A stretch of 64,000 bases of DNA from Branchinecta lynchi (taxonomy: Eukaryota > Arthropoda > Branchiopoda > Anostraca > Branchinectidae), in the NCBI GenBank assembly GCA_023053575.1, contig JAKZAP010000009.1, forward strand, positions 11,389,869 through 11,453,868. Reading direction: 5' to 3'. Made by a program: the position numbers and the translations under genes. Positions 17,131-59,785 of the stretch are shown one piece after another. How positions within the stretch are numbered: position 1 is the first letter of the stretch; every line of letters starts with the position of its first letter. Below the pieces are notes generated by a model. It was not told where the DNA came from. It did no database searches and saw nothing but the letters and a program-made list of their open reading frames with translations.

Positions 17131-17142
17131 AAAGAGAAGACA

Positions 17143-17575: not shown

Positions 17576-17861
17576 GATAGTGCAAAACGGATACGTAGCT
17601 GAATTTTGTTGGATCTACTTTTCGGTCCTTCTTGGCAAGGGTCCTCTTCAGGTTCTTCCCACAAATATTCTTTGAGCCCAAGCTGACTTTGAAACATTTA
17701 ATCATAGCTGACGTATCCGTTGTAAACATTGTTTGAATAAATTCTTCCCACAGTGTCCTTTTTCCAACTTGAGCGGTTTTTAGCCTGAAGAGGACCCTTG
17801 CCAAGAAGGGCCGAGATATAGCTCCAATGAAATTCAGCTGACATATCTGTTTTGCACTACC
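17576..17861. mobile_element. Inverted-repeat element with two opposed hammerhead-like cores
   Basis: Ends GATAGTGCAAAACGGATACG and CATATCTGTTTTGCACTACC are inverted matches. Two hammerhead-like cores face each other: minus strand 17620-17651 (CTGAAGA, stem II CCCTT/AAGG, GAAA) and plus strand 17785-17819 (CTGAAGA, CCCTT/AAGGG, GAGA). A smaller related element is inserted at 17664-17741 between perfect 11-bp direct repeats TTCTTCCCACA. A 143-codon minus frame through it is a by-product. Confidence 0.7.
17653..17752 (+). mobile_element. 78-bp nested insert with 11-bp target duplication
   Basis: TTCTTCCCACA at 17653-17663 and 17742-17752 brackets 78 bp that run from TTTGAGCCCAAGCTGACTTT to GTATCCGTTGTAAACATTG and GAATAAA. 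These are the terminal sequences of the elements at 10.4 and 22.0 kb with the middle missing. An 11-bp duplication is longer than most DNA transposons make and fits target-primed reverse transcription. Confidence 0.75.
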
Positions 17862-18851
17862 AAATATGATTTGAAACAATTTTGAGGATTTGTTTGGGTG
17901 ACATTTCTCCTTCTTCTCGATGTCCAGCGGCGTGTTTCGGACTTAAAGTATTACATAACCAGATAATCTGAAAAGAGCAGACAGACAGACCGAAATAGAG
18001 ACATTGCGGTGGCATCCTTAAGCATGGCAAGCGTAAAGCGTCATAAAGATAGGGTCTTGTACCACGAGCGTTGAAAACTGATCACGCAATGCCACACCAG
18101 AACAATTCAGCATTGCATGACCACTAGTTGAAGACAAATGGATGCAATTTTGCGAGTTCCAACCGTTTTTGCACTTCATAAAATTGCGTGTGACATACTA
18201 GTGGAATCGGAATGTCTTATATCATGCAAAATTCACGAATAAATCTGAAATCTGACGGTAACGATCGGTCTGCAGCTACAATTACAGTGAGATTATCGTG
18301 CATACAATTACCATGCGCCCTGTCTACCACGGATGATCTCTAGTCCAGCGTATCCAAGACACGATGTCGACGATGACACGTGGTGACGTGTCGAGACGAG
18401 TCCGAGTCCTATACGAAGTTCCTTGAGATGAGACGAGCCCGAGGATATAAATAAATGTTCTAGAGATAGAATCGCATCCGAGTCCTAAAAAATATTTTTT
18501 CTTTTTTTTAATAAACAATAGAACTTTATAGGTTCAGGTTCTTTTAATTTATACAACAGATAACAATAAAAGTCGATCAGTGGGGGCCGGCGGGGATATA
18601 AGCTCGTTAGCTCGGTCCCACGCGGAATATTCACCAAACATACAGAATCTACAGAAATTGTATCGCTAATACTGTAACCCCACACTACACCAGCATGACA
18701 AGATAAAAGCATTTTTGTTAGGGCATTGATAAGACACTATGCCAGCGCGACACACACAAAAAAAACACTGAACGGCTCTAGTACAGTACTATGGCATTAT
18801 GTGCACCAGCCCGACAATATACCAGCAATCTTGGTACCAGAAAAAAAGCAT
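17862..18851. other. No gene recognised
   Basis: Contains the segment shared with 15.75 kb (17929-17990) and a GAGTCCGAGTCCT-rich stretch (18390-18490) that resembles 44800-44870. No coding signal. Confidence 0.4.
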
Positions 18852-19121
18852 ATAATACCAATGCAGCCTACTTCGTAACAGCATTCAACTAGTGTCCATG
18901 CGCATTATGCTCCCGAAGGGTGTTCCAGTATCATGCTATTGATGCGCAAAACCGGTTTTCTGAAATTTGCCAAGTTTTTTCTAGAAATCAATGGGTCTAG
19001 GAAAAGGCTTAAAACAGCTAAGGCCGTAAATAATTTGTTGGAAGCAGAGCTTAGGTTTACAGTAATCAACTAGTTTTGAATATTGGAGCATAAACTGCAA
19101 ATAGTGCTAGGTGTGCTTTAA
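18852..19121 (-). mobile_element. MITE family B, partial copy
   Basis: AATGCAGCCTACTTCGTAAC, AGGAAAAGGCTTAAAACAGC and AAATAGTGCTAGGTGTGCTT match the family in reverse. The left terminal repeat is not visible. Confidence 0.6.
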
Positions 19122-19132
19122 GAGACGAACCA

Positions 19133-19516
19133 CACTGTCAGAAGTTTCATAAAAGATAGCGTATAACACTTTCAAGAATAACACCTTTTCACTTAGAAAT
19201 AAAGTGTTATTACCAATTAAGTCTACACTATTTCGTGCCTAGATCTCCAACAACACCTTCAATTCGTAAAAATACTAACAGGAACGAAAGAAACATAACA
19301 GATAACATCCCAAAGTGTTATCTGTTGAAACCGCGCATCCTTCTGTTGTCGTTATGTAACTTCTGACAGTGTAGTATGTTTACCTATTGAAGGTGTTGTT
19401 GGAGATCTAGGCACGAAATAGTATAAACCTAACTGGTCATAGCACTTTATTTCAAAGAGAAAAGGTGTTATTCTTGAAAGTGTTATGCACAATCCGTTAT
19501 TAAACTTCTGACAGTG
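19133..19516. mobile_element. MITE family A, chimeric copy
   Basis: Outer arms start CACTGTCAGAAGTTTCATAA and end inverted at CTTCTGACAGTG, carrying TAGATCTCCAACAACACCTT. The centre holds a second, different segment (AACATAACAGATAACATCCC, GTTGTCGTTATGTAAC, CTTCTGACAGTG) that matches one end of the 1152-1483 element. The same composite lies at 62.7 kb in the opposite orientation, so it moved as a unit. Confidence 0.75.
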
Positions 19517-19734
19517 TACATATCAATACATGCAACTTGTTGGTGCAACTATCATACAACTACGCTGGCTACAAATTTTTCATCGGGATATCCTCATCAC
19601 CATAATCAGACTAAAACTCACAGCCTAGTTTTGTATTGCCGCAGTTATCCTCATTTTCCTCAGCTCAAGTGGTTGCATTCCACATTCTTCGGTCGCTCTA
19701 CGGACTTTCAACTTCGGTGCCCGACACATTTACT
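19517..19734. other. No gene recognised
   Basis: Short stretch between two repeats with no coding or RNA signal. Confidence 0.35.
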
Positions 19735-20440
19735 GTAGCTTTTTCTAGCGAATAGTAAAAAACAAATCATGTGGTTGTTTTGACTTTTGACTGAAAACCC
19801 TTATCTCGCTACATGGTTTGATGTAATCTAATGCAAGTTCCACCAAGACATACTTTACAGATATCACTTTGATTTCTGAGTTGACTTCTTCATGCTTAAT
19901 TTGATTCCTATCCAGTTTATAGCCCAATTCAATCTAATAATGTAAAAGAAATTAACACTGCTGGAAGAAATAAAGGTTAATTATACGGCACCAGTCAGCG
20001 ACCTTTTACTATAATTAATCAATTATTATCCAGTTATTATTTGTTCTCGTGTTAGGAAACTCGAGTTCAATATTCTTTTTGTAACTCCTCCGATAGTGCT
20101 GTAACTTTTCCATCAGACTTTTTTCTACGTAGCTTTCTCTAGCGAATAGTAAAAAAAAATCATGTGGTTGTTTTGACTTTTGACTGAAAACCCTTATCTC
20201 GCTACATGGTTTGATGTAATCTAATACAAGTTCCACCAAGACATACTTTACAGATATCACCTTGATTTCTGAGTTGACTTCTTCATGCTTAATTTGATTC
20301 CTATGCAGTTTATAACCCAATTAAATCTAATAATGAAAAGAATGGTACTGGAAGAAATAAAGGTTAATTATACGGCAACCATAGTCAGCGACCTGTTACA
20401 ATAATTAATCAGTTCGTAGGTATTATTTGTTCTCGTGTCG
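19735..20440. repeat. 394-bp direct tandem duplication
   Basis: GTAGCTTTTTCTAGCGAATA at 19735 recurs as GTAGCTTTCTCTAGCGAATA at 20129. Both copies carry TGGTTGTTTTGACTTTTGAC and end near TTATTTGTTCTCGTGT. Each gives a minus frame with RNQIKHEEVNSEIKVISVKY, and 23202-23426 carries a diverged relative with RNRIKHEEV. The frame is kept in three copies, so a decayed coding origin is possible, but I recognise no domain. Confidence 0.75.
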
Positions 20441-20943
20441 TTCTAAATTTTCCATCGATACAATACACCCATCAACCAGAAAAACGATATGATAAAAATG
20501 TAATAGCAAAGACTAAATGTCAATTCGTCTAAGCAATCCAATGAAATTCAATACTGTAACTGTGGTTGCTCAAAAAGCCGACGACGTTTTAGCTTTCAAC
20601 TGTTCGTAGCATTCACTTTAACCACGTGGTAATTGATCAGTATGCTTCAATGTAATTAGCTTATAGCGTGTTGTGTAGTTACTTTGAAAATGTTTAATTT
20701 TATGTCGTTACTTGGGTCTTCACTCACCAGATTCTCCTAATCGTAAGAACATTAACCAAAAAGAGTTTCATGTTTCGTGGCTTCTACCGCGAAAGGAATT
20801 CGTCTTTTTATGCTGTATGGTAGAGGTATGTTATGTCGGATGTCAACTAACTCTGAACGCCATGAAAAACCCGATGATTTTGCACAGTATTTATGCACAA
20901 TCATCAGTATTTATGCATACGTTGTAAATGAAAAACAAAAGTT
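20441..20943. other. No gene recognised
   Basis: Contains CAGTATTTATGCA twice near 20884 and 20906. Small open frames show no motif. Confidence 0.4.
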
Positions 20944-21010
20944 TCCTCTGCTGGGATTTGAACCCACGACCTGCGGCCACTGTTCTGTCACTGAGCTACA
21001 CAGGGACTTT
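20944..21010 (-). other. tRNA-like SINE head or tRNA pseudogene
   Basis: On the minus strand TAGCTCAGTGA (20988-20998) matches a polymerase III A box and GGTTCAAATCC (20954-20964) matches a B box. The acceptor ends (TCCCTG and CAGAGGA) pair only with a bulge. The anticodon arm is too short for a working tRNA: about 14 nt separate the D and T arms. A tRNA-derived SINE 5' end is the likeliest reading; the body beyond the B box has no second copy in this window. Confidence 0.55.
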
Positions 21011-21637
21011 TGAACATAGTGGGCAAACCACTATAATAGTCAGATAGAAGCGGGCCACAGGAAAAGTGATCCCATCGAAGGCAAATTCATTCAAAAAGTT
21101 GTTTAAGTAAAATGAAGTCAAATTAAAGCCACATACTGATTTTTTTTTTAATATTTCTCTAAAAGTAGACAGTAAAAGTCTGAAGTACTGCATTGATTTA
21201 AAAATCGTCCGAAGTATCCGAACAGAAGACAAAAATTCAAAGGGAACATAAATTGATATTATGCTTGATGTAGAACGAAAACTGAAACACTTGGCTCTCC
21301 GCATATTTCAAGTTCTTATTGTTCACATTCGACTGAACTCCCGCAAACAAAACCAAGGTAGTCCAAATTTTGATAAGTTCGGTTTCGGATTTTAAAAACC
21401 CTTATTTCGCTGCGTGTTTTGATTTAAAGTAATAGTAGGCTACAGTAAAAGTTGATGCGTCGGACGTCGCGTACCTGTGAATGGTACCGACTAATCGGAT
21501 AGAATTATTTGTATGCACATACTAAATTATATTTATGCACAATATTTAAACATAATGAAAAAAGGTAATTAATGTAAATTAAAGTCTATAGTAAAGCAAC
21601 GGCTAAGAACGGAAAGTCAGTTAAGATGTTTGACAAC
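21011..21637. other. No gene recognised
   Basis: The part near 21360-21440 (TTTCGGATTTTAAAAACCC, TGATTTAAAGTAATAG) is related to the 23.2-23.4 kb repeat. No coding signal. Confidence 0.4.
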
Positions 21638-21830
21638 GATATTTCGGCCCGTCTTGGCAACGTCTTCCGTCAGGCTGTTGCTGGACTAAAAAAAAAACAA
21701 CTGCTGACAAGAACTCTTACCAAGAACGGACGAAATCAAAGATCGTAGCTGCTTTCCGTCTTTATCTGTTGTTTTAATAAGCATTTCCCGGTCAGCTTGG
21801 GCTCAAAGAGTGTTTACAAACTAAAGCCGC
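21638..21830 (-). mobile_element. Diverged ribozyme-bearing element fragment
   Basis: The minus-strand core at 21638-21673 has CTGACGG, a stem with GTTGCCAAGAC spacing, and GAAATATC. The right flank ends GGTCAGCTTGGGCTCAAAGA, the family terminus. The middle is A-rich and diverged. Confidence 0.6.
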
Positions 21831-21974
21831 ACAATTACATTTTTTGAGTATTTTGCTCTTTGCTCCGAAGTACCACAATTTCGCAGTGATTTCAAGGTGG
21901 TCCAAATATTCAAAAAGGAAGAAGTGGGTAGGTATTTTGTTCGCGAGCAAACCGACAATGCGGCATTTCACAGC

Positions 21975-22230
21975 TACAACCTAATTTATTCAAACAATGT
22001 TTACAACGGATACATCAGCTATGATTCTTCATCAGCGATATTTCGGCCCTTCTTGGCAAGGGTCCTCGTCAGGCTGTCAATCTTTTGGTTCAACTTCAGG
22101 GAAGGAAACAAACCTGTAATCTACAGGTTTTGTTGTGTTTTGTTTTGTTTTGTTGACGTATCCGTTGTAAACATTGTTTGAATAAATATTTCAAAGTCAG
22201 CTTGGGCTCAAAAAATATTTACAACCTAAT
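21975..22230 (-). mobile_element. Ribozyme-bearing element, best copy, 11-bp target duplication
   Basis: TACAACCTAAT flanks the 234-bp insert at 21975-21985 and 22220-22230. On the minus strand the core at 22037-22072 reads CTGACGA, then GGACCCTT, loop, AAGGGCC, GAAA and TATC. This has the conserved boxes and a stable stem II of a hammerhead ribozyme. Downstream GCTGATGA pairs with TCATAGC as a possible stem III, and ACAGC just before the core can pair with GTTGT after GTATCC as a short stem I. Outer ends match the 10.4-kb hairpin. No protein is encoded. Confidence 0.7.
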
Positions 22231-22758
22231 AACTAAGATATAGCGAAATGAAAAGAATTTGTTTTCACTCTTTTTATCCAAAGAAAGCTGGAGCACTTGG
22301 CTCTTGGCAGATGTTAAAGAGGGCCTCAAAATATGCTGTTACTGAGTAATACCAACTTCATTATGTATTTCATGACACCTATAAACGTTTCCTTCCGCTG
22401 AAGTGTTCTAAAAGCTGCGCAAACGTTCATTTCAAGTGTCCAACCCCCGACGAACCCGGGATTCTTAATTCCTTCCAGGTGCTCAGTGGCTCTACAGTAG
22501 CCTAAATAATAAGTAATGTCATGTCTGAGAGTTAAAACATTACCATGCAGTATATCATCCTTGCTAATATTTCTGTGTCTACTTTAATTTTTATTTCTGT
22601 TCTTGCCCGAGTGTTGCTATGTAAGAGAAGAATGTTTCATGTCTGGAATCTTGCTGGTTTTGCCAGTGACCCACAAGAGAGAGTAGGTCTAGATCAAGCT
22701 GAAGGTGACGACTGGATCAGGATGAGTATATCCAGGTTTTGATATGGACTTTAAGTTC
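22231..22758. other. No gene recognised
   Basis: A 65-codon plus frame at 22545-22742 starts with a hydrophobic stretch (IILANISVSTLIFISVLARV) but has no supporting context. Confidence 0.35.
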
Positions 22759-23200
22759 TGAATTTGTATTATAAGGTTTGAAGCCAAGCTGACCATTCCT
22801 TTCAAAATAAAATAGAAAAACGAGATTTTCGGGGTAAATTGTAAATATACACAGAGTTCAGAACTGTAAATTATCACAGATTTGTACATATACACTTTGA
22901 ACACGCACATTTTATCGTTCATTGTTTTACTTTTATTTGCATGTCGTTCAGTCCGCATCGTTTTTCTGGTTTTAGTTACATGTCGTCTTATTGTTTTTAG
23001 GTTCCGCATCGTTCTCCTGTTGTTATTGTGGTGGATTTTATGATTTAGTTTTGTTTTTTTCGCTGAGGACGGTTCGCCGGAAGTGCAACCGAAATATCCG
23101 AAACTATATTTATCCCTCGCACATCATCTAGAGGGGTAACTAGCTGATCAAGAAAAAACCCCGAAAATCTCGTTTTTCTATTTTATTTTGAATTTGTATT
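22759..23200 (+). mobile_element. Foldback element with hammerhead-like core, 12-bp target duplication
   Basis: TGAATTTGTATT flanks the 418-bp insert (22759-22770, 23189-23200). Inside, a perfect 35-bp inverted repeat (22801-22835 against 23158-23192) encloses the body. The plus-strand motif at 23063-23098 reads CTGAGGA, then GGTT paired with AACC, then GAAATATC. Its spacing matches the cores elsewhere while the stem bases differ. The left terminus is TTTGAAGCCAAGCTGACC. No open frame of note. Confidence 0.7.
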
Positions 23201-23440
23201 CCTATTTAACTTTTCTAAAGGCAAAAAAAAAAGGTAATCCAAATGTGCATACCTCTATAGAATACATAGTGTGTATTGGCTTCGGATTTGGAAACCCATA
23301 TTTCGTTGCATGCTTTGATTTAAAGTAATAGACACAGTCTGTCCATCCGTGCGTTGCAGATCGCACTTTGATTTTTGTACCGACTTCTTCATGCTTAATT
23401 CGATTCCTACCCTGTTTACAACCCACTATAAACGGAGGTT
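23201..23440 (-). repeat. Diverged copy of the 19.7-kb repeat
   Basis: The minus strand carries AATTAAGCATGAAGAAGTC and ATCAAAGTGCGATCTGC, matching the 394-bp repeat units. It retains a 74-codon frame containing RNRIKHEEVGTKIKVRS. Function unknown. Confidence 0.5.
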
Positions 23441-23579
23441 TTCACACTGATATATTTATTCTGACGCACAAATGAACTGCAAAAAGCTGCGTGTAGTGGT
23501 AAAAGAAAACTTATAATTAAGAGAGCGAGAAGTTTATTATAAACAAATAAATAAGTCCTAGGGTTGGCAAAAAAGAAAT

Positions 23580-24150
23580 GGGCCCAATTCACACAGAGAG
23601 CGAATTTCGCTATCGCCAGTCCTTAAACCTGCAGCAACAGGTAAAAAAACGCTTCGTCGGGCTTCGGCTCCGAGCCGGAAAAAAAGCAACGTCTAACAAA
23701 TAATTTGAGATGGATGTCGAACAGCTAACTAGCCTAGTTCAGAGTTTATACAGTAATGTGCGATACTGGTATTAAGGAATACAAAGACAACGGAATTAGA
23801 GAAAATGCCTGGAAAGAAATTAGTCAAGGTTTCGGAGAAGAAGGTACAGCGGAGACATCCGTCTCCGCGGAAAGGACGAAGTGCTAAGGAAAAGTACCAA
23901 GCCATCATCTATTCGGCTGGGCTCTCTCTGTCTAAGTAGCTTTCGACCTACGTCACCACATCCACTCAGTAACTCTGAAAACTATTAAGATCCCTTGCTT
24001 GTTGCTTCACCTCACTTCTACTAAAGGGGGTCTCCAGGAATCGTAAGCTGTCAGAAGCCATCGTCACGAGTCACAAGAGGCCATTTTTTCAGTTTACAGC
24101 AAATGAGAGCAGGCAGGGTCTGGACGAAAACGGTTACGACGCCCTTACAA
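23580..24150 (+). pseudogene. PIF/Harbinger-like 5' fragment with MADF (Myb/SANT-like) domain remnant
   Basis: GGGCCCAATTCACACAGAG at 23580 resembles terminal inverted repeats of animal PIF/Harbinger transposons. From 23710 the plus strand reads MDVEQLTSLVQSLYSNV, then after a one-base frame change KEYKDNGIRENAWKEIS and QGFGEE, a typical first half of a MADF domain. A third frame then gives a weak RRHPSPRKGRSAKEKY where the second half should be. These elements encode such a DNA-binding protein beside the DDE nuclease. No nuclease and no matching right end are visible, so this is a decayed fragment. A decayed host MADF gene is the alternative. Confidence 0.5.
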
Positions 24151-24670
24151 TCGTCAGTGTAGGACCCACTTAATTTACATTCCTACTTAAGAAAAATTTT
24201 AATCAAACTTAATTTCATTAAATTACAAATTTCTATTAACTATTTTTCTTTATTTCGTCTTGAATTTTCCCTTACAACGCACAACACATTATTTGCATAT
24301 TAGCAGCCGAAAAGTAAACTTTTCAATCAGACATCCTAAAAAAAACAGGAACGGTGTCCTTCCGAATATAGGTAATTAGTTTTGTTTCCCTTTTCTTTTG
24401 TTTTTTATTTGATTTAATTTAGTTCGTTTTTCTTATACAAATTGACATTTATCCTAGTTTTACAAACTGATTTTTGTCCAAGCACATGTGGTGGCGCAAA
24501 ATCAGGGATTCACGCAGCTGCATGCTGTATGGATCTGAAATTAAAATGCCCACGCCCAGATTTACCACATGCTGACAGCCGAAAAATGGTTTACTGCATA
24601 AAATATGATATAAGAGAATAAACAAATATAATAAATGCGATACTGCAACTTACTCGGCTTCAGAATGGCA
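24151..24670. other. No gene recognised
   Basis: AT-rich DNA without coding, RNA or shared-repeat signal. Confidence 0.4.
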
Positions 24671-25362
24671 GGAAGAGCCATGCCTTCATTGGAGCTGGAT
24701 GGCGATTGGTGGAAACGGAATGTTTTTGTGGCTAACCGATATGTGGTATGGACGAATATTGGAATGGGGAGCTAGGGACGGATATGGAGGTTGGAGAATT
24801 AGGAAAAATGGTGAGTATCAGGTTAAAAGACCAAGAGATCCAAACTTGTCAATTTCAGAAGGGCATTCCAGTGTCCCTGCGTTTCTTCGAGGCGGCCAAA
24901 GAGACTTGGGGCGTATTATATTTAAAGCAGGGTTAAGTAAGGAGGATATTAAGTATATTATTGAGATGAGGGCTGATAGTTTACCACTTGGGGCAAAGAG
25001 AAAATATATTGGTAAAGTAAACGAGAGAATTGGTCCTTACTTCTGTCCTATGTCTGGTCATGAGGACGAAAGCGTAGTCCATTTGATGTGTGATTGTGTG
25101 GAATTGAATGAATGGAGAAAGGAGATATTTGGTGAGAGAGTGTTTAATAAAGAATGGATGGTAAGGATGATGAAGGATGAATGTTTTGTTACTGTAAAAA
25201 TACTTGGACGTTACTTGAGGCTTTCGATGGAGCATAGAAGGAGATTTTTAGAATAGGAGCTGTGTGTTAGCTATGTAAGTGAGTGCATTTTTTATAATTT
25301 TTGTTGCCATGGCCCTCGGGCTTTTTTCGGTAATTACATTTTATTCAATTCTATTCTATGAC
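24671..25362 (+). pseudogene. LINE C-terminus and 3' UTR, family L
   Basis: The 3' end of a non-LTR retrotransposon. KAGLSKEDIKYIIEMRADSL, PYFCPMSGHEDESVVHLMC and LRLSMEHRRRFLE precede a stop at 25254-25256. The zinc motif has lost its second cysteine (CPMS). Upstream, FEAAKETWG lies in one frame and continues as IIFKAG in another, so there is a frameshift near 24910. The UTR has GCCATGGCCCTCGGGCTTTT and ends in an (ATTCT)n tail. The reverse transcriptase domain is absent, so this is a 5'-truncated copy. A 185-codon open frame from 24699 spans the frameshift and is only partly authentic. Confidence 0.8.
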
Positions 25363-25506
25363 ACTGTAGAGCCTATATAATTACAGCCGATCAGCAATTT
25401 CAAGAACTGACGCAACGCCCAAGCAGACATTAGTTGCGTTTTTTATCCGAATTCTCCGATTCCGCGTTTTTTGGACTATTCAGATGAAGTGAATTCTCCT
25501 TCTTGC

Positions 25507-27594: not shown

Positions 27595-27645
27595 AACAGT
27601 AATATCATGCGAACAGTAATATCATGCGAACAGTAAAATCATGCG
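27595..27645. repeat. 17-bp tandem repeat, three copies
   Basis: AACAGTAATATCATGCG occurs twice, then once with one change. Confidence 0.9.
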
Positions 27646-27724
27646 TGTAACAATTCTCGCTTTTACGTGATAGTTGTGATGCAAGCGCCCGTAGTTCATG
27701 CAATTAAAGCACGAATGGTACTAC

Positions 27725-37796: not shown

Positions 37797-38032
37797 CAGA
37801 ACGGATAGTCTACGCCAGTTGCACTTTGTTGGAACTATGTTTCGGCTCATCGTGGCAACGGTCCTCTTCAGGCTCAAGCTGGAAAATGAACTTGTGGAAA
37901 AGTTTGTGTCTGAAATGGACACTTGCCAAGAAGGGCCGAACCATAGCTCAAATAAAATGCAGCTGACGTATCCGCTTTCTACTGTCAAATATGATTCGCA
38001 GTCAGCTTGGGCTGAAGACTTGCGTTAAACGT
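37797..38032. mobile_element. Inverted-repeat element with two hammerhead-like cores
   Basis: The minus core at 37837-37871 has CTGAAGA, a stem-II spacer and GAAA. The plus core at 37910-37944 is damaged (CTGAAAT, GAAC). The right flank contains ACGTATCCGCTTTCTACTGT and ends GCAGTCAGCTTGGGCTGAAG. Overlapping frames on both strands reflect the palindrome. Confidence 0.65.
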
Positions 38033-38239: not shown

Positions 38240-38699
38240 GTATGAATCATGTGTAGGCTACACAAATTATCAAGCTTGAAGACTGCCTAATACACCATTT
38301 CTGCCTACATCTATGTCCATCTTCTATTTCCTGATACGTGTAATCTTTTCGTTCCTCGAAGCATCAGACAGAATAAAAATAAAACTACCCTTGCATTCAA
38401 GCATTCGTGTTGTTAGTTGCTAAGTCTCTAACCTCTTTTGAAGATTACCTGGCACTCTTTTTTCTCGATTCTGCGGAGCCAGAATACGTGAATTCCTTCC
38501 ACGAGCTTAGTGAATCATATGTGAATAACTAACAATGGTATATCAATGCGTTTTTTTATGTTGTCTTGCGAACATTAGACATCTACAATTACTAAAAATA
38601 TTTTGAATTTCTTATTTCATTTTAATTTTCTTTCTTGCTTGAAATGTATGCCGCACACGGAAGCTTGATTCTTCTTGAAATCTTGGCTCACATTTGAGC

Positions 38700-38735
38700 G
38701 ACATTTCAACCCTTCTTGGCAAGGGTACCTTTCAA
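38700..38735 (-). ncRNA. Solitary hammerhead-like core
   Basis: On the minus strand: CTTGAAAGG, then ACCCTTGCC, AAGAAGGGT and TTGAAATGTC. Stem II is preserved but the first box carries an extra T, so self-cleavage is doubtful. Flanks do not show a complete element. Confidence 0.45.
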
Positions 38736-39261
38736 GCTCTAGCTAACAGAATGAACCTGCGATCAAATTACTGTCTTATCTTCTCGTCAATTATCAGAAA
38801 GAAGGAATTATTCAAATCTGTACGTTCACAGCCCCCACTATACCAAGACTTTTTTTTTCAATCGATTTCTTTTCCCGCTCTGCCCTTGGTGTAACTCCTA
38901 GGCGAGTAGACATTCTTAGCCTTTAATCAACAATATTTCATGTTAATTAACAGAAAACAGGATCTACTCAAATCTGTACCTTACATCCATCAAATCGTCT
39001 GACTTTTCAGAAATGACAAGATGAACGTTCACCTTCTGCACTCAGTTTATCGCAATAAATTTATGCATCAGAGTTGATTTAACATGTCTTGTTTGTTGGT
39101 CTGACCCAATCAATGCGGCATCTTAAATCAGGAGTCCTCTTCTCAACTTGATGGTTCTATTGTTGATAGTGAAGGGCCATGCGATCTTCAAGGAATGTCT
39201 GGACTAATTGAGCTTTTCACTGACTATTGACTGCGTTTGGCTCGCGTACTAGTATGGAAGG
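38736..39261. other. No gene recognised
   Basis: No coding, RNA or shared-repeat signal that I can support. Confidence 0.4.
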
Positions 39262-39999: not shown

Positions 40000-40490
40000 G
40001 ACAGTGCTGAACGGATATGTCAGCTGAATTTGATTAGAGCTATATTTCGACCGTTTCTGGCAAGGGTCTTCTTCAAGCTCAAGCCGCTCAAGCTGGAAAA
40101 GGAATTTCATTTTCCTTCGTCTGAAGTTGATTTTCCAGCTTGAGTGCTAAACGGAGCTTATCCGTTTAGCACTGTCAATTATGGGCGTGTTCCACGCTAC
40201 TTACCGTAGTTACTACGCATGGCGTCGCGGATCCTGGCTTCTTGACGTCATGCTGGAACGCATTTTTCTGTTTTCAGCAAAATATCGTGCCATGAGCTAA
40301 CCGCAACAATTACGTCCCAGAAATTCATAGTTAATACGCTCTCGAGCCTGGTAAGCAAATAGTTACTATTTCGAGAAGGGTGGAACGGTTAGCGTAGTAA
40401 CTTTTCACGAGGCTGGAACGAAAATAGTAACTAATAGTTACTTTTATTAGAAGGGTGGAACACGCTCTATGATTCGCAGTCCCCTTCGGC
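40000..40490. mobile_element. Ribozyme-bearing inverted-repeat element interrupted by a MITE
   Basis: GACAGTGCTGAACGGATATG at the left and CCGTTTAGCACTGTCA at the right are inverted partners. The minus core at 40042-40077 has a damaged first box (CTTGAAGA), stem GACC/GGTC and an intact GAAA. The right flank continues as TATGATTCGCAGTC only after a family-C MITE, matching the uninterrupted flank at 37980-38000. Confidence 0.65.
40180..40470. mobile_element. MITE family C, copy 2, with 3-bp target duplication
   Basis: Ends GGGCGTGTTCCACG and GGGTGGAACACGCTC bound 40183-40467. Comparison with the empty relative at 37980 (ACTGTCAAATATGATTCGC) shows that TAT was duplicated (40180-40182, 40468-40470). 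A 3-bp duplication fits PIF/Harbinger-type insertion, though TAT is not the usual TWA. Confidence 0.75.
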
Positions 40491-42340: not shown

Positions 42341-42735
42341 TACTATCAAACCGGACATCTAAAACAATAAAAACACAAATGAAAGTATTCCATGGTGCTT
42401 TTTCATAACTTCCGGAATATTTAAAGCACAAGTGGCAGCAGATACAATTTCTTATTTAATTATTTATTTTAGAGGAACGACTTCGGCCGTAATACATACT
42501 AAAATAAACAATACCACTATATAATGTTTCTGTCAACACTGACAAACAGGACATTTAAATATAACATAAGTAAATAAAACACAAGTGAAAGTATTCCCTG
42601 GTGCTTTATCATCCCTTCCGGGATACTGAAAGCACAAGTGGCAGCAGAAACACTTTCTTATTTACTTATTTATTTTGGTCAAATGACTTGGGTCATAAAA
42701 CATAATAAAATAAACAATAACACTCTATAACCCAG
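42341..42735. repeat. 206-bp direct repeat, two copies
   Basis: GAAAGTATTCC at 42381 and 42587. Both units carry AAAGCACAAGTGGCAGCAGA and AATAAACAATA. Read in reverse, GCCACTTGTGCTTT near a T/A-rich end resembles the 3' UTR of the LINEs here. Confidence 0.75.
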
Positions 42736-43490
42736 AAAACTCCCCCCACTTCAGCAAATAGGAAAGCACTTGCGACCCAGAGAGAACGGCCAAAAGAGGG
42801 TTCCGGAACTTAAAATCCTAGTTCTAGTTTATATTACAATATTTAATATTCAATTGTCCCTTGAAACCATGTTTGGTTTCAGATTATCATAACACACTTT
42901 CATTGTTCTAAAACTTGATAACACAGAAAACTCCCACCACTTCTGCAAATAGGAAAGCACTTGCGATCCAGAGAGAACGGCCTAAAGAGGGTTCCGGAAC
43001 TTAAAATCCTAGTTCTAGTTTATATTACAATATTTAATATTCAATTGTCCCTTGAAACCATGTTTGGTTTCAGATTATCATAACACACTTTAATTGTTCT
43101 AAAACTTTATAACACAGAAAACTCCCACCACTTCAGCAAATAGGAAAGCACTTGCGATCCAGAGAGAACGGCCAAAAGAGCGTTCCGGAACTTAAAATCC
43201 TAGTTCTAGTTTATATTACAATATTTAATATTGAATTGTCCCTTGGAACCGTGTTTTGGTTTCAGATAATCACAACACACTTTCACTGTTCTAAAACTTA
43301 TAACACAGACAACTCCCCCGATTTTAGCAAACAGGGGAAGATTTCAACAAAAGATCGCAGAGAGAACAGCAAAATCCAAATCTAAAACCCTAAGTGTAGT
43401 TTCTATTCTAATATTCAAACTTGCCCATGTCCGAAGAGGCAATGCCTTGTTTTCTGAAAGTAATTACCAACACACTTTCGCTATTTTTAG
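42724..43490. repeat. 191-bp tandem repeat, four copies
   Basis: A TGCGAYCCAGAGAGAACGGC block starts at 42771, 42962 and 43153, exactly 191 bp apart, with a diverged fourth unit from about 43305. Units share AAATCCTAGTTCTAGTTTAT and ATATTCAATTGTCCCTTG. No coding frame persists. Confidence 0.9.
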
Positions 43491-44575: not shown

Positions 44576-45450
44576 GGTCGTACTGAAACAATTTTCTCAC
44601 CAATTGGCAAGTGAAATGATCAACAGCAAAGACGTGAAGGTTCGGGCGAGAGATTTTGCTCGTCGTTTACTACCGTCTTGATTAGCTTTTTACCTGATTA
44701 AGAACTAAAAAGTTTAAAGAAACCCAAGATTTCTTTTAAAGTCGAGACAGGTGTAAAAGAAAACTGCAATAAAAGAAGAGCTGCTGCGATTCGAGCAAAT
44801 CCGAGTCCGAGACAAGCCCGAGTCCTTGAAAAAGGTGTCTCGAGGCGAGTCCAGGGTCCGAGTCCACCAGCTTCGAATAAAGTGACATATACGCGAGGGG
44901 TCAGAGTTTTGGCAGGGTTTGGACAAAAACAAACTTCAAAACTCTGAAACAAAAATAGCAATAGAAGTTCTTAGAGTTCCGTGTTCCTAAGAAATATGAG
45001 GAAACGAAAGGACTTACCAAAGGAGTGACTCTGCTGTATCAAGACCACACGCTGAAAATGGAACAAAAACTCCAGTCGAAACAGTCAACAAATCATTCAC
45101 GGTGATGTAAACGTGCTCGAGTACATGCTTTTTGTTGACTATTGTCCGACCAGTAGTTGGAACGATAAGATCATACAAATGACTCGTGGGTGAAGTGCTC
45201 CATCCTAATCCGGTTTCAAAGTGAAACAAAAAGTGGATAAACTAAGCGAAAGTACACAGTGGGCATCTTGGCCGGAAATGTAAAACAGAAAACGTGTGAC
45301 ACGTAACCAGAATCCCAGTTCTTCAGTTGATCAGGCACCTTAAGAGATAACTGAGGACAAAAAATCATGTTAAAATTCATACATGAGTATAAAAATCATT
45401 CCTTTGAGAAAAAAATGACGCTAAACTGATATGTCAGCTGGGATTGGCTC
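44576..45450. other. No gene recognised
   Basis: A GAGTCCGAG-rich patch at 44800-44870 resembles 18.4 kb. Small overlapping frames have no motif. Confidence 0.35.
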
Positions 45451-45485
45451 AATAATTTGGCCCTTCTTGCAAGTGTTCCCGTCAG
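45451..45485 (-). ncRNA. Degenerate hammerhead-like core
   Basis: On the minus strand: CTGACGGG, ACTTGCAAGAAG, GGCCAAATTATT. The boxes are mutated (GAAA is lost). ACAGC precedes the core as in the better copies. Confidence 0.4.
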
Positions 45486-45642
45486 GCTGTAGCTAGATGA
45501 CACGAAACTGCTGTCACATAATTTCAATATTTCCATGATGAATATACCGAGTATAACAATTGAGAGCCTTAGGAACTAACAGAGTAAAAAATAAATAAAA
45601 GAAATCTCGTTAACGGGATGAGTAAGCTAAGATTTGCTGGAG

Positions 45643-45679
45643 GGATTTGTCGGCCCTTCTTGGCAAGGGTTCTCGTCAG
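45643..45679 (-). ncRNA. Hammerhead-like core
   Basis: On the minus strand: CTGACGA, GAACCCTTGCC, AAGAAGGGCC, then GACA in place of GAAA. It directly adjoins a LINE coding end on the other strand. Confidence 0.45.
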
Positions 45680-45690
45680 ACTGTAAATAA

Positions 45691-51116: not shown

Positions 51117-51206
51117 TTCGCATTCAAGGCCGTATCCGGGGGGGGGGGGGTGGTAGGCACCCCCCCCCCCCCGAAATAAATTCCTGGATACGGGCCTGTT
51201 CGTATT
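51117..51206. mobile_element. Minimal hAT-type MITE family G, 8-bp target duplication
   Basis: The element (51125-51198) is only 74 bp: CAAGGCCGTATCCGG, a G run, a C run, and CCTGGATACGGGCCTG. Flanks TTCGCATT and TTCGTATT are the duplication with one change. It is essentially two terminal repeats back to back. Confidence 0.8.
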
Positions 51207-53020: not shown

Positions 53021-53570
53021 TAAGATAAGATAAGATAAGATAAGATTTATTCCACTAAAAGCACAAGGGCCATGGGAAAAAATAAACACAAACAAAAATA
53101 AAAAACACAAACCAACTAAATGCTAACTATTTTACATATTCCTTTACAGGAATCTTTCTCTGTGGTTCATCGAGACCGAAAGGAATCTTCCCAAATTTTC
53201 CATATCACCAAATATTTTACTTCCCATTAATTTTACCAACCAATCCTCCCCCAAATATTAACACCAAAAATTTCCCCACGAAGATCTGAAAGCTCAGGAC
53301 ATACGCACATTACGTGAAAAATATTTTCGTCCAAATGTCCACACATTGGGCAAAAGTAAGGACCAGACAACACTCTTACCTTACCCAAATATCTTCTACG
53401 CATTCCTAAAGGTAGACAATCACCTCGTAAACTCATTAACAACCTCAAATGATCTGCTGGAATCCCCGCCTTAAAATAAATTTCCTCCCCCCATGTCTCT
53501 TTGGCCTTCGCGTACAACCACAATGAATCAGATGCCTCCACCATAGTTCTGTATCTATAAAAAGGAGCAA
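53021..53570 (-). pseudogene. LINE C-terminus and 3' UTR, family L, nearly intact
   Basis: The minus strand reads AKAKETWGEEIYFKAGIPAD, LRGDCLPLGMRRRYLGKV and PYFCPMCGHLDENIFHVMC, with a complete C-X2-C-X8-H-X4-C finger. Near 53252, in a run of G, the frame shifts by one base; in the shifted frame it continues GRFLSVSMNHRERFL to a stop at 53144-53146, matching MEHRRRFLE of the 24.7-kb copy. The UTR has CCATGGCCCTTGTGCTTTTA and the tail is (TTATC)n at 53021-53046. It is 5'-truncated before the reverse transcriptase core. The single frameshift may be recent. Confidence 0.85.
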
Positions 53571-53917
53571 CTGTTCATCCAATAAGCCTTAAAGTTAAGG
53601 CAAAGACAGGAGAAAGCAAATAAGGAAGTGGTTTGAGACAGTAGAAAAAGTTATCTCAGGAATATATCTTGTATGCGACTGACTGTAAACTACAAGTATG
53701 AGTCAAATCCGACCGTGTTAAGAGAAGGGTGGATCAGAGCAAAATAACTCTGGAGAGTAATGCGAAGACTTATCCTTCCCATGCATCAAAAATGGGCCTC
53801 CGTCGCAGCGCCCCCCCCCCCCCCCCAGCTCGCTCCGCGAGAGAAGCTTTAACAAACTGTTCGTGTGTGCAGTGGCGGACTAGAGTTATTCTGCTCTAGA
53901 TCAGAGCCAGCGCTTGT
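53571..53917. other. No gene recognised
   Basis: Contains a run of 16 C at about 53811-53826 and nothing identifiable. Confidence 0.4.
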
Positions 53918-54291
53918 TAAAGGACCTCTCTTACCTATAATACAAACGCAGCCTACTTCCGTAATCACTCCAATGATTTCTAAGTCGGAGGCCCGAATTT
54001 CGCACGGTGCATTCTAACCCATCTAATAAAACCTCATTGATTTTCTCACTTGCCGTGTTTTACTACCTTCGATGCGTATCTCGCTGTCGACGTTTGTCTG
54101 CGAGAAGTTTTTCCATCAGGAAAACGGTTATGTAAATTTTTCCTCGTTTTCGCTACGAGTCAAAGGGTGTCGAAAAAGGCTTAAAACAGCCAACACCGTG
54201 GATACTTTGTTGAAAGCAGAGCCGAGCCTTAAAGTATTTAATTATTTTTAAATACTGGGAGTTGAAGAGTAAATAGTGCGAGGGGTCTTTT
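53918..54291 (-). mobile_element. MITE family B, complete copy
   Basis: TTAAAGGACCTCTCTTACC at the left and GTGCGAGGGGTCTTTTGAC at the right are inverted partners. Internal GAAAAAGGCTTAAAACAGCC and AGTCGGAGGCCCGAATTTCG match the family. Confidence 0.8.
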
Positions 54292-54860
54292 GACGACTGG
54301 TCGAGTTTCAGTAGGGATGTTCGTGTCTGCGATTTGACTATGTGTCACTTTTTCGAATTTTGCACTGGGGTGGATGGAGAGGTCAGGTTAACACGAAAAA
54401 AAAAACTCCTTTCGTTTTCAGTTTCACTGCGTCTCCTTGCAATTCTAGAAACTGACGACGGTCCACATCGTGGAAAATATTCCCGCCATGATCTGGTCCA
54501 TTAACAGCAAGAACACAATCAAATTAAATTGTTGAGCCTTTCAAGTCAACAAAGCCTTATCAAAAATACTGACTGATGTCTAGTTTCTTCTCACCCAACC
54601 GACGGTGTATTCACAACAGATCAATGTAGGACGTAGACCATAATAAATAGGTCAGAGCATATTAGGTTAGATTATATTTGTTATTTTTATTATAAATTTA
54701 CAGGGTACGAAGGTGTTGTAGTTAAGGTATAATTATTAAGTATTAACAAGCACCGAATTTACGAATTTTTATTCTCCACAGTTCTTATTCCACAGTGCTA
54801 TTTTTAGTTTAGCTGTCATAAATTAAAAAATTTGAACATGAACGTATATTTTCTTTCAGA
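54292..54860. other. No gene recognised
   Basis: No coding, RNA or shared-repeat signal that I can support. Confidence 0.4.
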
Positions 54861-54896
54861 GATACTTCGGCTCTCTTGGCAAGAATCCTCATCCAG
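54861..54896 (-). ncRNA. Diverged hammerhead-like core
   Basis: On the minus strand: CTGGATGAGG (an extra G in the first box), TTCTTGCC, AAGAGAGCC, GAAGTATC. A TCAGTCAGCTTGACTGAAG hairpin lies about 75 bp to the right. Confidence 0.4.
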
Positions 54897-56798
54897 CTCT
54901 GAGTAAATTTCGAAAACTGTGACTGCTAGTTATACACAATTTCAGCTGAATAACCATCACGAAACTCGATTCAGTCAGCTTGACTGAAGGAATACTTGCA
55001 GAGTGAATTCTTTCAGTCAATTTCGACCCTCGTTGGGTAGTCAGGTTTTATAACTTTATTGTGGTATGTCAAACGGACCTGTGACAATACTTGGCATTGT
55101 CACTGTCGAAATGACCGCATTGATAATGAACTACAAATATGGCTCAAAAAGATCTAAAGAAGATTCTCCATGAGGGGGATTTTCGCTCTCAATCGATAAC
55201 TTTGATGCCCCTTTAAAGCACAGATCTTACTAGAAATGATCTTTTCCCTATGAAATGGATAAGTAAAAACGTTTTTGGAAAATACCATTACTTTCCACCT
55301 GAAACTAGCGGTTCTCTTGTTAGCACTTGTTAACTATATCCAGCCTTCCTGCTCTCCACTCTTTCTGAAAGACGACACAAGTTGACAACGGATTTTGGAC
55401 GTAAATGCATGTCCTCTGATCTTCATAGATCTCTCCTAAATCGGATTACGAAGCCCCAAACGAGACTCGACCTGAAACTTGGTTTCGCGCTGCAACCCAT
55501 AACTGTACCAGACTTGTTCGCCCCGATATCCACTCTACTGACCGGTATCTTTCGTCATTTGTACCATATTTCGTAAACTATTTTAACTCTGAACTGTGAT
55601 ATATTCGTTATTAATTGTATATGCATATACATATTTTAAGGTAATTACTGAGAAGTAATTTTAATGTCTTAGCCGTGTAAATAATTGTGTGACGATCCGA
55701 CGCTAGCGAGTAGTTATATGAGCTATTCAGGAAATAACCGTTGTATTACACACACATAAATTATAATAGGAATATCCATATACAACCATCATAATAACGT
55801 TTGTTTATTAATCCAAAAGGCCATACGAGATTAAGTACATGTACCACCACACAAATAAGCTGTTAATCCTGTTACTAGAACTATTACATGAACTAGGCTA
55901 ACCTTTCTGTCCCAAGTCTAAGAAGTTGAAGGTTGCAGTTCGTAGATTTCAGGACCATATATAACTTCATAATTTAACTTTAACTAAGAAGGGACAAAAC
56001 TCTGGGATCCCCAAAACTCTTTGCGAAAGACGGACTGCAACATTTTGGTTCGACTACCGACTACCTTCTATTTTTCAAGTTCTTAAATCAGACTATGGAA
56101 AAGAACAAGCTGTTGAAACAGTTGGGTCTCCTATTAAAACATTCCGTGAAAAGTGGAAGATCGGCTTTAGGTATTTGTCCTTGCTGTGTTTCACCTTTTG
56201 AGATAAAAATAACACCAAAACACTTGAAAAGATGGACTGGGACATGCTTTCACTCTTTGATTCGAAACAATACAAGCCATTCGTCTACGATTTGTGTAAT
56301 CATGCCGACAGGCCACGAGTTTTTTACAAACCAAATTCCATAATCAGAATAATAAAAAGAGGACTTAGTGCCTGTCGGTCAGTGATACGAAATTTCAGTG
56401 AAAAATGTAAACTACGTTTTCTTATCAGTAAAACAGTTTCTTTCCATAAAAAAACAACTGTGCCTAGTTGTTCATTTGCATAATCAGTTCGCAGTCTGTG
56501 CTCAGAGTTTGATACTGTTTTAACAATAATAAAAATTGCAGTTTTAAGTTGGAAGAAAGAAGGCTAGAAAGTTTCTGAAATGAGAATTCGAAGAGTTGGG
56601 AATGTAAATGCTCATTAGGTAAGATGACTAACAATGACTAATTTATTCATCAAAGTAATTTAATTTTGTAATCAGAATTTTCATTTTTGTTTTCTTTTGA
56701 TGTCGACAAACAGATTCACTAGAACAGAAAACGAGCCCTAAATGAAAATATACAGACAAATAACTGGAGATGTAGAAATAGCCTTCCATCATAATAAG
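54897..56798. other. No gene confidently recognised
   Basis: Frames at 55382 (64 codons), 56095 (82) and 56232 (83) overlap or lack motifs. No shared repeat is evident. Confidence 0.35.
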
Positions 56799-57192
56799 TG
56801 TTTGCTCAGGGGCGGATCCAGACTTCCGTTCTAGGGGGGGGGGGGCCGATTCTTACCGAAAAGAGTGGAGGTAGTGTCCTTTTTGTCGGCCACAAGACTG
56901 ATTTTTTTCGCGTTTTAAGTGTCCCTGTCGGTCTCTTATTTAACGAAAATGTGGTTTTCATATATTACAACAATGGTAAAAACTGTACTTGATCAACTGA
57001 CAACTGTTTACAAGAAAAATTCAAGCTCCTGGCTCCACTTGTAAAAAGATTTTAGAGTCTAGTTACAGTAGTTAGAACATGCGTTAATGCAGACTTCCGT
57101 AAGTGCAGTAAAACAAAACAAAAAATTACAGCCAGTCTAGGGGGGGCGATCGCCCCCCTCACCCCCCCTCTGGATCCGCCCCAGTGTTTGCT
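56799..57192. mobile_element. hAT-type MITE, CAGGGGCGGATCCAG ends, 8-bp target duplication
   Basis: TGTTTGCT flanks it at 56799-56806 and 57185-57192. Ends CAGGGGCGGATCCAGA and CTCTGGATCCGCCCCAG are inverted; each is followed by a G run or C run. The 378-bp interior has a 64-codon frame that is not supported as a gene. Confidence 0.85.
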
Positions 57193-57538
57193 CCTGTTGT
57201 ATGTAGAAAGATAGAGATGAAAGACTGGAAAGTTTCAGAAATGATAATTCGGAATTCATAAAAATGTTAAACGATTATTTGGTGAGAGCATTACTTATCG
57301 CCCGTTGCCCGCGGCAACTAACTTCATGTTGAATACTCTATTAATAATGAAAAGAAAAAACATATATTTGTCCCAGAGTTCCACAAAGGAAGGCAAGCGG
57401 AGCATGCAAAAAGAAAGAAAGAAAAATACTCAAAACAACCAAATATACTATCGCACAAACATATAAGAGGATGATGAAGAGAAAAACAGGAATAGGCTGA
57501 TCCCGGTATTAATAGTATGTCTGCAATCTCTGGGACAC
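57193..57538. other. No gene recognised
   Basis: No coding, RNA or shared-repeat signal that I can support. Confidence 0.4.
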
Positions 57539-57700
57539 TACACTGTAAAAAGTTTCTCCGAATAAGGATGCAGTATTTGCTACTGGGATTAAGCTTATCT
57601 CTATTGGGATAAGATTAATCCGAATTCGGGATAATTTTATCTCAATAAAGATAAGATTAATCCCAGTAGAAAATATTGTAAGATTGTTTTTTACAGTGTA
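57539..57700. mobile_element. 162-bp palindromic MITE with TA-flanked CACTGTAAAAA ends
   Basis: TA-CACTGTAAAAAG at the left and TTTTTTACAGTG-TA at the right. The inner part pairs again: CTGGGATTAAGCTTATCTC against GATAAGATTAATCCCAG. TA at both ends and CACTGTAAAAA termini suit a Tc1/mariner-type MITE. The 74-codon minus frame crossing it is not a gene. Confidence 0.75.
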
Positions 57701-58230
57701 GCCTTCGGAACAATAACTCTTCGTCGAAACCAAGGGGAAGACACATAAAATTGAAAGTAACGAAAGTAAACATTTTGTAGAGAGACAGGTTCTTTACCAA
57801 CAATTTTTTACTATGATAGTTTTTCTTTAACTAGAACTCATTGCTGTATTTTTATGTTTAACATTTATTAAATTATTTAAACAGGTAGGCCTGCAGAGCA
57901 TGAGCCGGGCCTCAAAATTTAATCCAAAGCATAACAAATTCTGCATATGTTTAAAGCCTACATTTGTCATTTTTTATTTCACTTCTTTAATTTGAGGTTT
58001 TCCTTTCTTATCAGTTGACTGAGGGTGTGTTCCAACGCCGGCCCAATCAATATATTCTTGTTTACAACCTGCATCGACAAATACAGCCTTCAGAGACTTT
58101 TTTTTAACTACTGGAACGAACCCCCGGTCGCATGTTCGTTAAAGGACTCCTCTTTACATAGGCCTATACACAACAATACACCTCCGACTATGTGTTCAAT
58201 TGGGGACTGAAATTTGGTCAAAATCTATCA
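57701..58230. other. No gene recognised
   Basis: TTAAAGGACTCCTCTTTAC near 58137 resembles a MITE family B end without its partner. Confidence 0.35.
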
Positions 58231-58400
58231 CGGTCAGCCCAGTTCCGCGCCCCGCTCCCAAAACGCTCCGATGAAATCCATCAGTACGAAACTCGCCAGC
58301 GGGCAGGCTTCAAACTAGTGAAATGTAACACGGAGCGTTACCGCCGCTCGGCACTGCCGTTCATAGCTAGAAAAATGATCTATTGCTTATTCATGTTCCT
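58231..58400 (+). pseudogene. Possible LINE C-terminal fragment
   Basis: The plus strand reads LPKRSDEIHQYETRQRAGF and NTERYRRSALPFIARKM. The H-x-Y-x-TR motif followed by RRSALPFIARK resembles the stretch just before WNxLP at the end of many LINE reverse-transcriptase polypeptides. The expected WN-LP segment does not follow, so the copy is broken here. A 106-codon frame containing it is only partly LINE-derived. Confidence 0.5.
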
Positions 58401-59691
58401 ATTTTTGTGCAACCCTTTCAGTGTCTCACTGCCGGTTGTCTGCATTAAACCCGTCAACCTCTCTCTCTCTAGATGTCCAAAACAATCACAAAAAAATGCT
58501 CAAAGTATGTAAGGCAACCACCCTGACGTTAAGCAACCTTACTACAACATCTTTTCTCTTCTAGGTTACCGATATTTGCCGTCTTAGCATTGATAATTCT
58601 GATGGTAAGCTCTTTTACTCTTTATGTCTTCTTTACTTTCTTTTAGTATTTATTTAGTCCCAAAAGTAGGCACAGCTTGTGTTTATCGAATGCGCAAATT
58701 TTTCTTTTGTCGCAAATAAAATACATTATTTTGTATTTTAAACGCGGCTCTTACTCTTAAAGCCTGTGATAGCTCCCGAGAAAACACACGCTCTGTTTCT
58801 GCAAGTTCGGTAAATTAGGGCGGGGATTTTCTTTGTCCAATCAGGAATTCGGTGAAATGCAACCACTAAAGCCAGATGTAGGAGATATTTTATACAGCCA
58901 GGCTGTTGCTGGACGGGAAGAAAAAAACAATAATTTTGAGACCGAAATATCGCATCGTAGCTGACTTGCCATTTAGCCAATGTTTAACATTTCTCTTTTT
59001 CACAGTCACTTTGGGCTCAAGGAATATTTTGTATTTCTCTATTATTTAATTCTCTATGCGAAGTGAAGGAAGACGTTAAATGCTTGAAATTAAGTACCTC
59101 CGCGCACAAATAACATTCAATCTCATTTAAAACAAATCTCTATAGATTTGTACTTTAAAATGTATTAATACTATAGACTTGCATAAGGCAGACCTGGAGG
59201 TCTGTATCACCCTTCATAGCACCAGCCTAACTTTTATAAAATAAAACCCAAAAATTCCTTCACCGTATTCAAACCAACTACTTCCAGCTCTCATGACCAG
59301 TGCTGCAGCAACTAATCTACAGAAGGGCCTAGCATTTAAGACACACTTGTGATATACTAATTTGGTAAAGGTTACCCCTCACAAGACTTAGTAGTGAGCA
59401 TGTTTTTAAGCTGTCTTATAACCTGTTAGAACGCTAAACGCCTATATAACTATGAGGATAATTGGAGTGAGTATCAACGCTTTAGAGCATCAGTCCCCAA
59501 GTCGCGTCTGTCCCCTCTTTTTGTTAGCCCTTAATTTCCTAACTTGTGTATCTTGATATCCGAAATCTGTCTAGCCTATCCCTACAGTAACCCGCCCTGC
59601 CTCGGATTCGCGGAAAGTTGTTTTCTATAGCAGAAAACGGCTATCGTCATGAAGCAATGTCTTTGGTTCAACTTCGGAAAGGATTGACAGC
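58401..59691. other. No gene recognised; weak ribozyme-element remnant
   Basis: CAGGCTGTTGCTGGACGGG and GAGACCGAAATATCGCATCG near 58897-58960, then TTTGGGCTCAAGGAATATTT, resemble the 21.6-kb copy but the core is incomplete. Confidence 0.4.
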
Positions 59692-59785
59692 CTGACGAGG
59701 ACCCTTGCCAAGAAGGGCCAAAATATCGCTGATGAACAATCATAGCTGACGTATCCGTTGTAAACATTGTTTGAATAAATAGTTT
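59692..59785 (+). mobile_element. Ribozyme-bearing element fragment
   Basis: The plus-strand core at 59692-59727 reads CTGACGA, GGACCCTTGCC, AAGAAGGGCC, then AAAA in place of GAAA. It continues with GCTGATGAACAATCATAGCT, GTATCCGTTGTAAACATTG and GAATAAA, matching the 22.0-kb element through its 3' end. Confidence 0.65.

Follow-up and report, generated by a model that had tools for sequence, protein, structure and literature searches.

What element carries the hammerhead-ribozyme-like motif that recurs on one strand or the other of a 64,000-nucleotide stretch of the Branchinecta lynchi genome (contig JAKZAP010000009.1, positions 11,389,869 to 11,453,868; the window), and does the motif correspond to a ribozyme? 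An earlier note on this DNA had listed 13 copies as a single dispersed family and had raised a relation to Penelope-like elements (PLEs). When the sequence was re-inspected, all 13 coordinates were found to carry a hammerhead-like core. Twelve of these belong to one family, here called family 1, while the site at 23063 on the plus strand is a member of a second family. With a probability of about 92%, we consider family 1 to be the pseudo-long-terminal repeat (pLTR) of an endonuclease-type PLE, present mostly as short non-autonomous insertions, and the motif to be a minimal type I hammerhead borne by this pLTR.

The hammerhead of family 1 and its conservation

The best copy, at 22033-22076 on the minus strand, reads CAGC-CUGACGA-GG(A)CCCUU-GCCAAG-AAGGGCC-GAAAUAUC-GCUG. 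All of the core positions are canonical and the cut is predicted after C17. The motif is a minimal type I hammerhead with stem I, a 7-bp stem II containing one bulged A, and no stem III. Flanks allowing a stem III had been proposed, as had one C too many before stem I. Neither is seen: within the monomer there is only a self-complementary AUAU between G12-A14 and H17, and the best copy reads GAAAUAUC^GCUG, with a canonical C17 and no surplus C. Apart from these two points the inference of the earlier note was largely right, and the fold of the family 1 copies supports the hammerhead that it described. Of six sequences folded, all five from family 1 form stems I and II and the 23063 copy does not. 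The minimum-energy fold of 22021-22084 minus is the hammerhead together with an outer stem I, GAUU/AAUC (z -1.98, with 8 of 200 shuffles equally stable).

A profile for the family was built from 30 other genome loci. It re-finds 12 of the 13 sites at E ≤ 2.4e-5 in the 64-kb window, together with pieces that had not been listed, among them 10404-10530, 17700-17748, 21704-21821, 22154-22226 and 58942-59030. The copies and associated features in the window are as follows.

10404-10530, unstranded: head-to-head family 1 end pieces without hammerhead (profile 101-190 minus, 108-151 plus)
17601-17654, minus: hammerhead copy with all core letters kept but stem I disrupted (2/4); forms the left arm of a head-to-head pair
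17776-17835, plus: hammerhead copy, A14 to G; right arm paired with 17601-17654
21623-21679, minus: decayed hammerhead copy, A9 replaced, pairs kept 2/7 in stem II and 4/4 in stem I
21704-21821, plus: strongly decayed copy with tail, head-to-head with 21623-21679 (profile 63-190)
21976-21984, unstranded: left target-site duplication ACAACCTAA of the best-kept insertion, exact repeat of 22221-22229
21985-22220, minus: complete head-to-head PLE pLTR insertion (profile matches, inverted repeat)
22033-22076, minus: intact minimal type I hammerhead, stem I CAGC/GCUG, core CUGACGA, GAAAUAUC (fold, descriptor, core scoring)
22221-22229, unstranded: right target-site duplication ACAACCTAA, exact repeat of 21976-21984
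37821-37881, minus: hammerhead copy with all core letters kept and 4/7 pairs in stem II; forms the left arm of a head-to-head pair
37895-37960, plus: decayed hammerhead copy; right arm paired with 37821-37881
38696-38740, minus: decayed hammerhead copy, three core changes (profile and core scoring)
40026-40086, minus: hammerhead copy of subfamily B (stem I GAGC/GCUC), C3 to U (core scoring)
45440-45490, minus: decayed hammerhead copy, three core changes (core scoring)
45629-45688, minus: decayed hammerhead copy, A14 to C (core scoring)
54855-54902, minus: decayed hammerhead copy, three core changes (core scoring)
59680-59743, plus: hammerhead copy, 11/11 stem pairs, G12 to A (core scoring)

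In the host genome searched (575.7 Mb, 216 contigs) the 28-nt core of family 1 is found, with up to three mismatches, at 16,496 + 16,652 = 33,148 places, and the reversed pattern, used as a control, at none. Twenty stretches of 10 kb (200 kb) were sampled from 20 contigs. Ten of them have a family match in or beside them, and the 20 together hold 19 core-bearing matches, which by plain extrapolation gives some 55,000 copies, diverged ones included. On its own, the loose pattern CTGANGA-N{8,30}-GAAA does not reach significance in the window (8 found, 4.8 expected, equalled in 11 of 100 shuffles). A strict descriptor, which requires a 4-bp stem I, the core, 4 bp or more of stem II and GAAA-NN-U-H, matches one site in the window and four in the sampled stretches, with none in 60 dinucleotide shuffles of the window or in shuffles of 10 of the 20 sampled stretches.

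To describe conservation, 62 copies were aligned, the window contributing 12, the sampled stretches 13 and targeted loci 37. They derive from 102 profile matches, of which 19 were too short and 66 distinct rows were left; L008 (two rows), L031:8694 and L050:2486 were left out. Conservation of the structure, including a covarying stem I pair, is directly observed. The stem positions pair in 89.9% of 661 cells, as against 33.9-54.7% when the partner is slid, and 17 cells are changed on both sides compared with a shuffled mean of 8.0 (0 of 500 shuffles equal). Compensatory changes, which had been looked to as a check, are found across the copies. The outer pair of stem I is CG in 27 copies, GC in 12, AU in 3 and UG in 2, with 11 other combinations and 7 gaps, while H17 is C in 44, A in 14, U in 4 and never G. 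Two subfamilies can be distinguished, which differ at N7 (C or A), at H17 (C or A) and in the compensated outer stem I pair; these are sites where the hammerhead permits change. The full core letters are retained in 36 of the 62 copies (7 of the 13 sampled rows, 3 of the 12 from the window). By core and stem scoring most window copies are decayed, and only one (22021-22084 minus) has both the core and all 11 stem pairs intact.

Insertion anatomy and the linked Penelope-like frames

In the best-kept insertion, at 21985-22220, the minus arm with the hammerhead runs to a short end and the truncated plus arm runs to a long end, the difference being referred to here as the tail. The profile matches positions 9-151 on the minus strand (21984-22126) and 118-190 on the plus strand (22154-22226), and the inverted repeat is 21984-22017 / 22154-22187. 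Head-to-head arms are seen directly throughout the family. Among neighbour pairs less than 400 bp apart in the window and the 20 sampled stretches, 8 of 10 are divergent, one is tandem and one convergent. At the targeted loci 15 of 23 neighbour pairs are head-to-head, a count in which the overlap of L013 with L014 and of L016 with L017 enters two divergent pairs and one tandem pair twice.

Target duplications are likewise directly observed. Fifteen pairs were hand-chosen from the neighbour pairs and further two-armed loci. Nine of them have 9-13 identical bases common to their own flanks (8 share at least 11), compared with a maximum of 9, reached twice, in 210 crossed-flank combinations. Pairs at L006, L015, L039 and L050:2281 and those in the window lay outside this test; for L025 the right end was placed by eye. 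In all nine duplication-bearing pairs one arm has the short end (profile 151-156, ..TTTGAATAAA) and the other the long end (188-193, ..GGGCTCAAAGAATATTTA), as assigned from the profile range in eight and by reading in L025. The family thus has two preferred 3′ ends, and the tail of one arm is about 35 bp. The inner 5′ ends of the head-to-head pairs are cut back at varying places. In young copies the arms are identical (100% in L004, L025 and L027), whereas two window pairs have arm identities of 86% and 76%.

Nine of the 30 targeted loci include sequence derived from upstream of the pLTR, eight contain some of the terminal portion of the frame region, and one runs past the tail into the frame. 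The locus L054 (G000:C10:21306250-21306950) is a 701-base piece between two tandem copies. On its coding strand the pLTR with an intact hammerhead is followed by 50 nt, a TAA and then the ATG of a frame beginning MFQSQLGLKEYL.., such that 50 nt separate the hammerhead from the start codon of an 863-codon frame. Of the two insertion ends, the short one coincides with this ATG and the long one with codon 12, which makes the tail the beginning of the frame. As a separate observation, L054 also contains at 212-472 on the minus strand an 86-codon open frame (..SPKLNKKIDSLTRTLAKKGRNIADEKS..) that spans the hammerhead lying in front of the start codon of the PLE.

A text-pattern search for reverse-transcriptase (RT) motifs in the genome pieces examined before the RT query found none. 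The RT query itself gave 150 scored matches from 263 candidates, with a best E-value of 6.4e-23. The linkage analysis used 81 of these 150 rows, the best ones apart from one row with a 186-aa frame; the weaker rows outside the 81 have no frame longer than 500 aa. Among the 81 there are 22 frames of at least 859 aa, 19 of them of exactly 863, and 17 of 20 RT matches neighbouring within 7.5 kb are divergent. The 153-bp junction between hammerhead and frame occurs at 32 places in the genome (control, 0), 17 of which are exactly 1,292 bp upstream of an RT core, and for 15 no RT row lies within 2.5 kb. Conversely, 16 of the 22 long frames have the junction upstream, and six are without it at the stringency of the 153-bp pattern. 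This physical linkage to PLE reading frames is directly observed and supports the Penelope-like connection that had been proposed. The C-terminal piece of the upstream frame (L055) reads GIYSIPCDCGKRYVGRT..R..EH. Here GIY..YVG..R..EH is visible, and from this motif the piece is read as a putative PLE GIY-YIG endonuclease. A separate GIY-YIG domain was noted at L052 (C3:15426050-15426193; PF01541, E 1.4e-5), where it is followed by a zinc-knuckle-like CYICHQQGHFAADC.

Known elements, mechanism and rival explanations

Hammerheads are dispersed by the thousand in animal genomes, with minimal ones in the pLTRs of PLEs (PMC6155905, PMC7761336). All available PLE sequences carry hammerhead motifs, usually minimal and without helix III (PMC6155905); the minimal (dimeric) type I forms are those of Cervera and de la Pena 2014 and Lunse et al. 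2017, cited via PMC7761336 and PMC6155905. Family 1 resembles these in its type I order, lack of helix III, wide dispersal and position in a pLTR beside a PLE frame. It differs from them as described in the bulged A of stem II, in having C17 and A17 subfamilies, and in the outer stem I GAUU/AAUC that subfamily A can form. Minimal PLE hammerheads are already known, and family 1 is this known kind in a new place; among the papers listed by full-text searches on PLE hammerheads we recognised none that describes it, most subscription papers lying outside these searches.

The Poseidon PLE of Anolis carolinensis (PAc; PMC11167929) is similar in that its hammerhead is at the junction of pLTR and open reading frame and its tail lies between two RT start sites. 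In PAc, however, the frame starts from stem II, with the cut 26 bp inside, whereas in family 1 the ATG comes after a TAA and lies 50 nt downstream of the cut. For PAc it is reported that both strands of the target are cut and extended; the anole hammerhead cuts only with its protein added, and core mutants had no effect on insertion in vitro (PMC11167929). The Penelope families of Adineta vaga (PMC3846280) have direct and inverted pLTRs, as in family 1, with an inverted pLTR shorter by 37 bp, a 31-bp tail and target duplications of 8-10 bp. Their pLTR and tail reach into the frame, which fits what is seen in family 1. Hammerheads are unmentioned in the text of that paper, and copy number is very low (PMC3846280). 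Family 1, in contrast, has 33,148 core places, its copies being mostly without the frame among the loci seen.

On the basis of the anole element (PMC11167929), it would seem likely that each of the two target strands is cut and serves as a primer for reverse transcription. Target-primed reverse transcription would have two alternative internal start sites separated by about 35 nt, one at the ATG and the other near codon 12, and priming on both strands would then give head-to-head arms, one short and one with the tail. The family 1 hammerhead may also cleave RNA. More tentatively, in tandem PLE transcripts two motifs might join by AUAU/AUAU into a double hammerhead, which can be drawn without knots and which would cut after C17, perhaps helped by the PLE protein. 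It is also conceivable, if improbable, that the palindromic AUAU mainly serves to pair two PLE RNAs, in which case the fold would be a dimerisation signal and cutting a by-product. A protein dimer would bring two templates and prime one on each cut strand, giving head-to-head insertions.

Several results weigh against the reading of family 1 as a PLE pLTR that carries a minimal type I hammerhead. The Rfam hammerhead models, suggested previously as a check, gave no match in any copy, either on the window at gathering or relaxed thresholds or on 201 bp alone. The energies of the folds do not stand out, with z between -1.98 and -0.40 in family 1 and z 0.09 for the copy at 23063. Folding of monomer and dimer, a further suggested check, gave stems I and II in the monomer, but in the energy model the double hammerhead (-27.0 kcal/mol) is less stable than two monomers (-30.4 kcal/mol). 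The number of pairs with two-sided change (3) and the number of pair types (13) are not above those of shuffles (217 and 209 of 500), so most of the covariation comes down to a single base pair and a small number of subfamilies. Of 101 family matches, in which overlapping loci are counted twice, none begins at the predicted cut (profile 97-100) and 12 start, scattered, at profile 89 or beyond; there is thus no trace of copied cleaved RNA. The hammerhead of young head-to-head copies would presumably lie within a long RNA hairpin. The RT query was a hand-composed PLE-type motif string. Finally, Pfam, NCBIfam and PDB searches showed no domain in the C-terminal piece of L055, and PF01541 gave only two matches across the whole genome, from four candidates, neither tied to the PLE; for this reason the GIY-YIG assignment rests on the reading of the motif. 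One of these two matches appears SLX1-like by eye.

It is possible to ask whether the hammerhead likeness is simply that of a conserved piece of the repeat and has no function. The Rfam result, the lack of insertion ends at the predicted cut and the decay of most window copies would all sit well with such a coincidence, but the strict descriptor is absent from shuffles, the two subfamilies are distinguished by N7, by H17 and by a stem I pair whose change is compensated, and the motif is already published for PLEs (PMC6155905); we regard it as very unlikely indeed. Metazoan non-LTR retrozymes would be tandem repeats of about 170-400 bp in which hammerheads cut multimers, the monomers circularise and PLE enzymes move them. 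Family 1 shares with them a type I hammerhead in short dispersed repeats, some of its neighbours are tandem (143 bp apart in L016/L017, for example), and elements of this sort beside PLEs have been described (PMC7229834). Retrozymes are, however, tandem and non-coding (PMC7229834), whereas family 1 is mainly head-to-head (8 divergent, 1 tandem and 1 convergent of 10), has no monomeric stem III and is joined to a PLE RT frame, making a retrozyme very unlikely.

The inverted arms and target duplications are also what a terminal-inverted-repeat DNA transposon, or miniature inverted-repeat transposable element, with a chance hammerhead-like string would show. The outer ends of the duplication-bearing pairs nevertheless differ, one short and one long (eight of nine by profile, L025 by reading), the inner ends are variably truncated and an RT frame is attached to the repeat; this is the least probable of the explanations considered. 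With family 1 taken as a PLE pLTR, a resemblance noticed by eye becomes a placed element, in a PLE family with many long frames. Its pLTR copies number in the tens of thousands, are of graded age and each bear a naturally occurring version of the minimal hammerhead, so that comparison by itself might be used to ask which changes of the core and stems are compatible with recent copying. The same set of copies might be used to ask whether insertions ever start at the cut site.

The second family and other features of the window

The site at 23063 lies in an insertion of a different family:

22801-23192, plus: second-family insertion, inverted ends 22801-22835 and 23158-23192 (inverted repeats; match to L053)
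23058-23103, plus: hammerhead-like core UUUCG-CUGAGGA-C-GGUU..AACC-GAAAUAUC-CGAAA (sequence)

This core departs from the canonical form because there is one extra C between A9 and stem II, and its minimum-energy fold is not a hammerhead. The TATCC remarked on by the earlier note is present here, where its second C can serve as the first base of stem I. The GGTT/AACC stem had been taken as a compensatory variant, but since the site matches L053 and belongs to a different family this is not covariation inside family 1. The second-family core is found at 2,339 genome places with up to three mismatches (control, 0), and among the places listed the neighbours within 700 bp comprise three divergent and two tandem pairs. 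L053 is a divergent pair with 203-nt arms that are 96% complementary, and the insertion at 22801-23192 has a possible 6-bp target duplication, ATTCCT. To judge from its anatomy, the second family, with no frame linked, may likewise be the pLTR of a PLE.

Short hairpins with TTTCTATTTCTTTCG arms at 11102-11193, 11487-11569 and 61693-61790 match the outer ends of L053, and two of the three weakly resemble plant microRNA families in Rfam. Elsewhere in the window, the open frames at 24609-25256 (plus) and 53233-53574 (minus) are alike, with the pattern GPYFCPM.GH.DE..H.MC.C.EL, and from this are perhaps C-terminal pieces of one element of long interspersed nuclear element type; a protein search with 24609-25256 (plus) gave no match. 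A tRNA-like sequence at 20943-21005 (minus), which at 24.8 bits is below the Rfam cut-off of 29, is perhaps the head of a short interspersed nuclear element. Tandem arrays are found at 16182-17135 (169-bp unit, 5.7 copies) and 42718-43335 (191-bp unit, 3.2 copies), and a 146-nt inverted repeat, 88% complementary, at 19132-19277 / 19372-19517 with its arms 94 nt apart.

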